From the NCBI GenBank assembly GCA_947585215.1, contig CANPWY010000003.1, positions 1 to 41,076 on the forward strand: 41,076 nucleotides of DNA, given 5' to 3'. This document shows positions 14,783 to 30,986 of this stretch, one piece after another. A program made the position numbers and the translations under genes. Source of the DNA: an uncultured Clostridia bacterium (GTDB taxonomy: Bacteria; Bacillota; Clostridia; Oscillospirales; JAAYOS01). The number at the start of each line of letters is the position of its first letter. Within the stretch, counting starts at the first letter, position 1. The notes beneath the pieces were generated by a model, which worked only from the letters and a program-made list of their open reading frames with translations, was not told the origin of the DNA and ran no database searches.

Positions 14783-16876
14783 TCACTCAAACGAGAGCAC
14801 AACGACCCGCGCGGGGACGTCCGCATAGCCGCCGAGCTTCACAAGGCACAGCTTGAGGTCGTCCACGAGCACCACGTCCGGCGCGCCGCCGAAGACGGCG
14901 CTGTCATCGTCTGTTATGGTGTACTCGAGGCGCAGACTGTCGTCCTCAGTGCCGTATATCCTCACCGTGAGTTCGCCGTCATAAGCGGTCGTAACAAAGT
15001 ACCCGCCGTCGCGCGAGACGTACAGGTCTCCCCTGCCCTCCTGCGCGGAGTGCTTGAAGACCGTGTACGACAGGTCGTTCATGTCCGCGATTGCCATCGC
15101 TCCGGAGGCGACGAAGAAGTTTTCGTTGAAGAACAGCTTTCCCCCGGCGTATCCCACCGCGCCCTGCGAGTCGAAGTCCTCAAACGACGCGCAGGCAAAG
15201 CCGCTTCCGTCAATGCCGACACTGCCGAAGCAGGAGCCGCCCGCAAAGATCACCCTCGAGGAATCCTCGTCAAACCACATATTTGTGACGAGCGCGAGGC
15301 CGCCGTTCTCCTCACGGTGCTCGGCGTCAACCGTGCGGAGGAGCTCCGCCTCCCCGCCGTCCCTGTTGAGAAGATAGATCCCTCCGTCCATGATGCTGAA
15401 CGCAACGTGTCTGCCGTCCGGAGACACGGCATAGCTCATGATGTGCCGGCCCTCGCCTGTGGGATCGGTGAGGGAAAGCCTGTCGGTCTCGGCAAGCGTT
15501 GAGTCCAGGAACACACAGACGGTTTCGCCGCGTTCACCCGCCCCGAGTGAGACGGAGGCCTCCCCGCCGCTTGCCGCCTCTCCTACGGCGCAGAACCCGC
15601 CCACCGTCGGGAAATACTCAGCGCCGGTAAGCTCGGGAAGTGAGCCTTCGGCCACGACCGTGCCGGAGGCAAGGTCGTAAAGGCACAGCCCGTCCGTCTT
15701 TCGTATCAGTATCTCGCCGCCCTCGCCGTACCACAGCGCGCGGACGGAGCCGTCCATGACCTCCTCGAGGTCGAGTGGCGTGCCGTCCGGAGACGCTTCC
15801 GCCGGCGGTGCGGAGACATCCGCGCCGCTCCCGCCCTGCCGCACGAACGCGAGAGAGCTGCTTTTTATGAACTCGGAGCGTCCCTCGCCGGATACGGCGA
15901 CGGCGTAGAAGGTCGTTATATCCTCAAGCTCGCTCACGCGGACGTCCGCTTCAACACGCGCGACCTTGCCCTTCTCGAGCGTTATCTCCCAACAGTCCGC
16001 CGTCCCGTCGCCGAGCGGAGCGTGATCCGCATAGAACGACACCTGTAAGGTTGTCCCCGGCACCCCGCAGAGCTCGAAAGCGACTCGGACGGAGTCCCGT
16101 CCCGTCGTATCGAGGTTGTCGTAGACCTTCTCGCCGTCGTAGGTGACAAACGTCATCACCTCGGTATCGAGCCGATCGAGCGGCGACTTCCCGCCCGAGG
16201 TCAGTCCTCCGCTTTCAAGGTTTCGCTCGATAAACTCCTCGGTCATGAGCTCGTTGGATACCGCGACGTTTTCGAGCAGTACGTCCGCCGGTGCGGACGC
16301 GCCGCCCTCCGGCGGGTCCGCGTTGAAAATGATGTCATATCCGGCGGACGCCGCGCCCTGATAGAAGCCGTAGCCGGAGGAATTTACCATGTCCGGCTTG
16401 AACTGCGGGTAGTAGATGCTCGCTACCGTCGCCCTCACAGTTTCTCCGGAGCTTCCTGCGGCGGGAATGAAGGACAGGTCGAAGCGGCGCTTCTCGTCGT
16501 CGTTTTGGAGATCGAAGATGTGCATATAGGCGTACTCGCCCTCTCCGTCTATCCGATAGGGCTGCGGGACGCCGTTCATGTACACGAGAAGGCCGATATT
16601 CTTCCCGGAACCGCTGCCGGTGACGTAGTAAGGGATGCTGAGCTCTCCGCCGTCGTACGTGACGACGCTCTCACCGCCGTCCGGGAGGTCGATGCCGTGA
16701 CCCATCGAGCCGAGCACGTCCGGCGGACCCTCGTAGTCGAAGGGGTTCTCCGCGGACGGCTCCGTGCTCTGCGAGGCGGGACTTGCCGACGGCCCCGTCT
16801 CGGCGGCGCATCCGCAGAGCAGGGCCGCGAGCACGCACGCCGCCGCAACTAATATTGCTATAACATTTGCTTTCAT
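14783..16876 (-). CDS. Large surface lipoprotein with propeller-like C-terminal half
   Basis: First gene of the ABC cluster. The N-terminus MKANVIAILVAAACVLAALLCGC is a lipoprotein signal (mature Cys at about residue 23), followed by a Ser/Pro-rich linker. The protein would therefore sit outside the membrane on a lipid anchor. Residues from about 60 to 340 form an all-beta-looking acidic region. From about residue 375 on, repeats such as SYAVSPDGRHVAFSIMDGGIYLLNRDGGEAELL resemble WD40/TolB-like beta-propeller blades. I do not recognise a specific family. Similar lipoproteins next to ABC-2 exporters are often sensors or accessory factors, which is inference here. AAAGGAG lies nine bases before the ATG. 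Its stop overlaps the region where the ATPase gene begins, consistent with one operon. Confidence 0.75.
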   Translation of the reverse strand: MKANVIAILVAAACVLAALLCGCAAETGPSASPASQSTEPSAENPFDYEGPPDVLGSMGHGIDLPDGGESVVTYDGGELSIPYYVTGSGSGKNIGLLVYMNGVPQPYRIDGEGEYAYMHIFDLQNDDEKRRFDLSFIPAAGSSGETVRATVASIYYPQFKPDMVNSSGYGFYQGAASAGYDIIFNADPPEGGASAPADVLLENVAVSNELMTEEFIERNLESGGLTSGGKSPLDRLDTEVMTFVTYDGEKVYDNLDTTGRDSVRVAFELCGVPGTTLQVSFYADHAPLGDGTADCWEITLEKGKVARVEADVRVSELEDITTFYAVAVSGEGRSEFIKSSSLAFVRQGGSGADVSAPPAEASPDGTPLDLEEVMDGSVRALWYGEGGEILIRKTDGLCLYDLASGTVVAEGSLPELTGAEYFPTVGGFCAVGEAASGGEASVSLGAGERGETVCVFLDSTLAETDRLSLTDPTGEGRHIMSYAVSPDGRHVAFSIMDGGIYLLNRDGGEAELLRTVDAEHREENGGLALVTNMWFDEDSSRVIFAGGSCFGSVGIDGSGFACASFEDFDSQGAVGYAGGKLFFNENFFVASGAMAIADMNDLSYTVFKHSAQEGRGDLYVSRDGGYFVTTAYDGELTVRIYGTEDDSLRLEYTITDDDSAVFGGAPDVVLVDDLKLCLVKLGGYADVPARVVVLSFE

Positions 16877-30248: not shown

Positions 30249-30277
30249 ATTATAGCACGTCCCGGCGGCGTTGTCAA
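30249..30277 (-). promoter_or_regulatory. Consensus sigma-A promoter of the ilv-leu operon
   Basis: On the - strand a perfect TTGACA (30277-30272), a 17-bp spacer and a perfect TATAAT (30254-30249). Transcription is expected to begin near 30242 and run through the leader into ilvB. Such a strong promoter fits control by attenuation after initiation. Confidence 0.9.
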
Positions 30278-30540
30278 TAGTAATTTTATTCGCGGCAAAT
30301 CGCGCTCGCTTCGCTCGCTTACCAATTTGCCGCGAAAGCACCGTGCAGAGCTATGCTCTGCACGGTGCTTTGCGCTGCGCTACGCGCCGAGTTTTCCGCC
30401 TACGGCGGAAAATCGACGCACGCTACGCGATATGTGTTTTTTCCGACGTACACGCCGCCGGAAAAAACGGATTGGAATTTATTTCGCCGCTTACGCGGCG
30501 AAACTCTGCGAGGCGGACGCGGCCAAGCCGCTCCGCGCTG

Positions 30541-30683
30541 GTTCGCGCGGTTGATGTTGCCGCAGGCAACATCGCGCAGGCAAATCACATTCAAGGTCGG
30601 CTTTGCCCGCGAAGCGGGTAAAGCTCACGAGGGCTGAATATGTTCCGATGAGGAATATGTCGGCGCCCTCGTGTTCCGCGCCT
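30541..30683. repeat. 143-bp repeat unit, copy 1
   Basis: The unit begins GTTCGCGCGGTT, then holds a palindrome (GATGTTGCC-GCA-GGCAACATC). Next come ATTCAAGGTCGG, a CCCGC-GAA-GCGGG hairpin, and a long stem closed by CACGAGGGC / GCCCTCGTG with an inner GATGA-loop stem. It matches copy 2 closely from about 30580 onward. Confidence 0.75.
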
Positions 30684-30829
30684 GTTCGCGCGGTTAAAGT
30701 TGTTTGCCGAAGGCAAACAACTTTGCGGAGCCCAATCACGTTCAAGGTCGGGCTTTGCCCGCGAAGCGGGCAAAGCTCACGAGGGCTGAATATGCTTCGA
30801 TGAGGAATGTGTCGGCGCCCTCGTGTTCG
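30684..30829. repeat. 143-bp repeat unit, copy 2
   Basis: Same order of parts as copy 1, but the first palindrome has an unrelated, longer 13-bp stem (AAAGTTGTTTGCC with GAA loop). The following 95 bases are about 90% identical to copy 1 by eye. A G-U pair in the CTTTGCCCGC stem of copy 1 (G with T) is G-C here, a change that keeps pairing. Confidence 0.75.
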
Positions 30830-30834
30830 GGAGC

Positions 30835-30918
30835 GAGCATTTCAATCAAAGGGATCCCAAAGCGGCGTGAAACGCCGCTTTGGGAAAGCATTTCAATCGA
30901 AAGGGGTCCCAAACGGCG
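30835..30918. repeat. Tandem 32-bp direct repeat around two hairpins
   Basis: GAGCATTTCAATCAAAGGGATCCCAAAGCGGCG (30835 on) is repeated with a few changes about 51 bases later (AAGCATTTCAATCGAAAGG..., from 30886). Each copy leads into a hairpin starting TCCCAAA. A separate 17-18 bp repeat (GGCGAAACTCTGCGAGGC at 30497, GGCGAACTCTGCGAGGC at 30939) flanks the array. Confidence 0.65.
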
Positions 30919-30957
30919 CTTTGCGCAGTTTGGGATTTGGCGAACTCTGCGAGGCTG

Positions 30958-30986
30958 TTGACCGCTCCGCGCGAACGTGGTATTAT
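30958..30986 (+). promoter_or_regulatory. Sigma-A promoter of the MocR-like gene
   Basis: TTGACC (30958-30963), a 17-bp spacer and TATTAT (30981-30986). The -35 and spacer fall in sequence shared with the repeat array (CCGCTCCGCGC), so the promoter seems to be built on the array edge. Confidence 0.75.

Follow-up and report, generated by a model that had tools for sequence, protein, structure and literature searches.

A dispersed, modular hairpin repeat, probably mobile, in an uncultured Clostridia bacterium and its relatives

The window analyzed here is a 41,076-nucleotide stretch of contig CANPWY010000003.1 from an uncultured Clostridia bacterium of the order Oscillospirales (assembly GCA_947585215.1). 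Between the ilv genes and a GntR gene lies a region of about 670 bases (30289–30955) that is without genes and in which inverted repeats cover nearly every base, as the initial annotation had stated. This raises the question of what kind of element such an array is, and how its symmetry is kept while the sequences of its stems differ. The annotation's count of about a dozen hairpins was right, but only about half of them are perfect triloops as it had described: six perfect stems of 9–17 bp have 3-nt loops, one perfect 9-bp stem has a 4-nt loop, and the remaining hairpins have imperfect stems or long loops.

Chance is ruled out as the source of the symmetry by the folding scores and by the excess of triloops over shuffled sequence. 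The single-strand folding z-score against shuffled sequence was −7.0 for the core of the array (as RNA) and −10.6 for the entire array (as DNA). Perfect triloop stems of at least 9 bp numbered 239 in 546 kb of the same genome, a sample picked to take in repeat-bearing contigs, versus 2 after shuffling.

The array starts with a core element:

30289–30514, plus strand: core, 226 bp, kept at the locus in four congeneric species according to the orthologous alignment
30289–30336, plus strand: hp1, 12-bp stem TTCGCGGCAAAT with a 24-nt loop; a stop codon precedes hp1 in most copies of the family
30335–30371, plus strand: hp2, perfect 17-bp triloop hairpin; most other copies have a bulged A (CCGG-A-CAGAGC)
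30392–30412, plus strand: hp3, perfect 9-bp triloop hairpin TTTTCCGCC-TAC-GGCGGAAAA
30436–30468, plus strand: hp4, 13-bp stem with the conserved 7-nt loop TACACGC and an A.C mismatch at the third pair from the loop
30469–30481, plus strand: single-stranded linker GGATTGGAATTTA, kept in other families
30482–30503, plus strand: hp5, perfect 9-bp inverted repeat TTTCGCCGC-TTAC-GCGGCGAAA with a 4-nt loop
30502–30514, plus strand: core tail AACTCTGCGAGGC, a recurrent 3' breakpoint of the repeat family

It is followed by a block of tandem copies of a unit of about 143–152 bp plus two T hairpins; the 143-bp unit noted initially is present as a degenerate tandem repeat with spacings of 143–152:

30515–30955, plus strand: extra block, 441 bp, not in the congener G001 at this site
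30553–30573, plus strand: W hairpin, perfect 9-bp stem, loop GCA
30600–30624, plus strand: Y hairpin, loop GAA, imperfect by one G-T pair
30626–30673, plus strand: X stem CACGAGGGC...GCCCTCGTG with a conserved loop of about 30 nt, as read in the sequence (repeat D1)
30696–30724, plus strand: W hairpin, perfect 13-bp stem, loop GAA
30752–30776, plus strand: Y hairpin, perfect 11-bp stem, loop GAA
30778–30825, plus strand: X stem, second copy, loop of about 30 nt
30855–30885, plus strand: T hairpin, perfect 14-bp stem, loop GAA, preceded by the linker GAGCATTTCAATC
30907–30935, plus strand: second T hairpin, imperfect, as read in the sequence
30943–30955, plus strand: second tail AACTCTGCGAGGC (repeat family D5), which closes the block

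The array is a copy of a dispersed family, so it is not unique to this assembly, the outcome that would have told against the initial annotation. A BLAST search of its own genome (2.02 Mb, 222 contigs) with the array gave 148 matches with recurrent breakpoints, and self-comparison of the 546-kb sample revealed 79 repeat regions, 34 kb in total, some of which belong to a second family. For the core's conserved 3' half we built a covariance model, R1 (its match in the window spans 30436–30514, with 101.8 bits), and scored 150 candidates per genome. With R1, the window genome had 111 copies, and three congeners had 88, 107 and 112; a fourth, G003 (93% complete), gave no match, nor did four genomes from other genera of the same family. 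Among the carriers tested outside this family but within the order, copies numbered 3–144. BLAST with the core matched 28 of 394 genomes of the order, and R1 matched 9 of 291 genomes of the class. A named carrier is Vescimonas fastidiosa (Oscillospiraceae), where a copy lies 3' of nhaC. The search of the whole genome and relatives that the initial annotation had proposed therefore revealed dispersion, with more than 100 copies in the genome itself and others in relatives, and a patchy presence among related genomes.

Of the stretches read, L031:5580–8930 of the window genome (contig C8) has the repeats of this family most densely clustered: repeat arrays lie just 5' of rpsF and 3' of rpsR and, by eye, two tRNA genes adjoin; the rpsF-ssb-rpsR group was named from reading the sequence.

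Across the family, the order in core orientation is hp1, hp2, hp3, hp4, linker GGATTTGAATTTA, hp5 and tail AACTCTGCGAGGC, the tail often being followed by T (TTT in 22 copies). The 7-nt loop of hp4 is TACACGC or CACATGT, and the third pair from this loop is a conserved mismatch, A.C or C.C in 47 of 64 copies. The optional modules W, Y, X, T, Z and D each consist of a fixed linker plus one hairpin, and the linkers differ between modules.

The ilv/GntR intergenic region was aligned in four congeners, whose GntR proteins are 94–98% identical to that of the window; the GntR orthologues of three congeners come from rabbit (“Lapin”) MAGs. The core is kept in all four species, while hp1–hp5 differ between them as whole units in various combinations and the linkers stay. 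Stems are exchanged likewise at two further orthologous pairs. This four-species comparison points to an exchange of hairpin cassettes, and it shows that single hairpins are replaced as whole units with their linkers kept. At the position of the extra block, by which the window is longer than G001, G004 has a different, shorter insert and G002 an apparent deletion remnant; the window alone among the four species has these 441 bp, bounded by the repeated AACTCTGCGAGGC. The best reading is that the core at this site is old and that the block was joined at the tail later.

Turnover of this kind is not limited to one locus. Twenty-nine orthologous repeat sites were compared between the window genome and G001, with flanks mostly 90–98% identical, and several differ by presence/absence or largely in length, so that one species carries a repeat where the other has almost nothing. 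Copies are gained and lost rapidly at such sites.

The early remark that stem sequences differ while symmetry is kept proved correct, and the covariation that the initial annotation suggested looking for is strong. Among 64 aligned copies, two-sided change was found in 16 of 19 pairs, and 166 cells had such change; the figure was 37 for shuffles (0/500) and never above 50 for slid controls. Within hp4, 12 of 13 pairs show compensatory change. The stems of hp4 occur as a few discrete alleles common to different loci and species, without significant linkage to the hp5 alleles (p = 0.11, n = 48). Because much of the covariation consists of these few alleles, exchange of ready-made hairpins is a better reading of it than compensation step by step.

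The loops follow a rule of their own. Among the perfect triloops, 191 of 239 are purine-N-A or its complement TNY, and the closing pair is mostly C-G. The loop class is fixed per slot: TNY in hp3 (38/39 copies) and hp5 (33/42), purine-N-A in Z (21/21) and W (46/67). When hairpins with a single mismatch were oriented to the purine-N-A strand, the wobble-type mismatches were G-T in 24 cases versus A-C in 7 (p = 0.003), a bias which favors folding as a single strand, with a polarity that differs between the slots of one element. Triloops of the form C-(GNA)-G are exceptionally stable in DNA, for example in d(GCGAAGC). Such GNA-loop DNA hairpins are in use in published work.

In 48 of 57 copies, a home-made gene caller placed a co-directional gene 5' of the core, and about 20 of 28 copies with a co-directional upstream gene start at −4 to +14 nt from the stop codon or nearer. 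The repeat mainly sits just 3' of co-directional genes, to which the window copy is an exception, as it fills exactly the space between two divergent promoters:

30249–30277, minus strand: ilv-side promoter TTGACA-17-TATAAT, abutting the element
30958–30986, plus strand: GntR-gene promoter TTGACC-17-TATTAT, abutting the element

With this placement, no known transcript crosses the array. The initial view that termination does not explain it holds for the window site, whereas the copies of relatives are often flanked by duplicated host terminators. Of 23 copies parsed from other families within the order, 9 have repeats of 18–35 nt on both sides, mostly the host terminator hairpin. As to terminal inverted repeats, the flanking ends of other-family copies resemble CTGTCGAAAAA...TTTTTCGATAG. 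A host intrinsic terminator was seen on both sides of the element at L213, L227, L229, L224, L269 and L274, all in other families of the order, and the flanking copies at L224 are inverted with a flipped loop. These paired terminators suggest a putative terminator-targeting transposition with long target duplications. At L266, the 24-nt flanking repeat has one mismatch and is apparently not palindromic, which argues for a true target duplication. Within the genus of the window, no relevant target-site duplication and no terminal inverted repeats were seen at the copies.

Taken together, the array probably belongs to a BIME/BOX-like repeat that is mobile but non-autonomous, occurs in many copies and exchanges hairpin cassettes between them. 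Insertion is indicated by the presence/absence differences and by the duplications that flank the copies of relatives. The conserved core (hp1–hp5 and the tail AACTCTGCGAGGC) carries optional modules, each a short conserved linker with one hairpin slot. According to this model, an enzyme may insert copies near gene 3' ends or terminators, after which recombination or gene conversion at the common linkers could swap cassettes among the more than 100 copies. The symmetry would be kept because the hairpins act, or are copied, as single-stranded DNA, in which C-[purine-N-A]-G triloops fold very stably; effects on the host, such as 3'-UTR hairpins or insulation of neighboring genes, would be secondary.

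Among known systems, REP/BIME elements prefer the 3' ends of genes. They form intergenic, high-copy, palindromic mosaic arrays with short loops in enterobacteria and pseudomonads (PMC2817692, PMC3116915, PMC3733652). The present family shares all of these features, including dispersed intergenic palindromes in mosaic arrays and the location at gene 3' ends. Unlike REP/BIME, it has a 226-bp core whose five hairpin slots come with linkers and a conserved 7-nt loop; it also exchanges whole-stem alleles, and no RAYT was found in its genus. The mosaic REP/BIME-like element proposed at the outset was therefore the best of the guesses offered, since the repeat is modular and palindromic, occurs dispersed and mostly lies at the 3' ends of genes; no RAYT was found in the window genome or in four congeners. 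BOX of Streptococcus pneumoniae is described in part of its source (PMC3049150) as a high-copy composite whose flanking modules enclose internal ones in varying number, with predicted stem-loops, linked to an insertion sequence through similarity of terminal inverted repeats. By that description alone, the composite modular build, stem-loops and high copy number are alike; in the genus of the window, however, no terminal inverted repeats were found, and swapping of hairpin alleles is not met in that part of the source (PMC3049150). Bacterial MITEs are non-autonomous, short, structured and intergenic (reviewed in PMC10969869), as is the present family, some copies of which have apparent target duplications in other families of the order. 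In contrast to MITEs, neither terminal inverted repeats nor duplications were found in the genus, nor a partner transposase, and the duplications of relatives are unusually long (18–35 nt), mostly whole terminator hairpins. In kind, the family seems akin to Escherichia coli REP/BIME and pneumococcal BOX without having been described before; a search of open-access papers, among which most subscription papers are missing, gave no earlier account of it.

Several known identities were rejected. An IS110/IS1111 derivative was discarded since the DEDD transposase (PF01548) had no match over the cut-off in the four carrier congeners and was found in only some other carriers. A group II intron or retron remnant was rejected because reverse transcriptase (PF00078) had no match over the cut-off in the genus, and an IS1202/ISNCY-derived MITE, which would account for long target duplications, because the ISNCY transposase (NF033594) was found in none of 12 genomes. 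Judged on anatomy alone, the array has no characteristic part of a group II intron, attC/integron or CRISPR. A known structured RNA was dismissed, as Rfam 15 gave nothing above the gathering score, with sub-threshold chance matches only. A phage or plasmid origin was also rejected, the repeat not being viral: five weak matches were to unannotated fecal “phage” scaffolds and one to a Vescimonas replicon, and the one exact-pattern match in 2.9 million viral contigs shared only an 18-mer as seen.

Some observations speak against mobility. Sequence gain could also stem from recombination, transposition being what we infer; conservation of the linkers and the hp4 loop between families could instead mark selection for an RNA function or for protein binding; and no Y1, IS110, RVT_1 or ISNCY match over the cut-off was found in the genus. 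It is conceivable, if somewhat unlikely, that an unrecognised non-RAYT machinery acting on single-stranded DNA moves and rewrites individual hairpins as cassettes: it would insert at terminators, swap whole stems among more than 100 sites and impose a C-(purine-N-A)-G loop whose strand is fixed per slot.

The core may instead be a selected structured 3'-UTR RNA that stabilizes or terminates the transcripts of the upstream gene and has spread through its usefulness, which we consider unlikely. The sense orientation 3' of stop codons, the conservation of loop and linker across families, the strong covariation and the tail often followed by T all agree with it. However, the window copy lies where no known transcript runs, the favored loop strand differs within one element (hp3/hp5 versus Z/W), which is awkward for a single transcript, the near-complete G003 does without the repeat, and Rfam offers no match. 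A candidate chromosome-organization site for gyrase, a nucleoid protein or replication termini, by analogy with some BIMEs, would suit the many intergenic palindromic copies, but their orientation relative to genes (48/57) and, again, their absence from G003 make it very unlikely. Equally palindromic, mosaic and placed at 3' ends are true REP/BIME systems moved by RAYT (Y1 HUH transposase), which would also fit the single-strand polarity, the bulged A of most hp2 copies and the A.C mismatch of hp4; yet PF01797 had no match in the window genome and its four congeners (G000–G004) with positive controls, so the REP-associated tyrosine transposase proposed elsewhere in the genome is absent and this explanation is highly improbable. 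An assembly artefact or collapsed repeat, conceivable since the MAG is a draft in 222 contigs and contains many near-identical repeats, is hardly credible because orthologous arrays occupy the equivalent site in three other MAGs, with the same core and unique flanks, while the array lies mid-contig and copies occur in a named Vescimonas record.

Other elements were noticed along the way. A second dispersed family, up to about 1 kb long, has GC-rich hairpin arrays around a conserved center of about 550 bp, which in L042 holds one open frame of 211 codons; its copies are at L042:2463–3518, L063:107–1082, L059:17025–17925, L053:8203–8907 and L055:529–1269, and those at L042:2463 and L063:107 are missing at the orthologous sites of G001. 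A 111-bp palindromic insert at L039:6921–7022 has the ends GTATAATAG/CTATTATAC and is missing in G001 (gap of −1); it may represent a further family of small elements located next to promoters. Within the window, a 697-codon ORF on the minus strand (14783–16876) has no Pfam match.

Proteobacteria and streptococci have well-studied interspersed palindromic repeats. With more than 100 copies per 2-Mb genome and whole-hairpin exchange between sister species, the present repeat offers a comparative system for how perfect palindromes retain symmetry under sequence change, a long-standing question for REP/BIME-type repeats, for which RNA selection, template switching and cassette recombination are candidate causes. 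Being spread through a common gut order, the repeat also forms a large unannotated share of the intergenic DNA there.
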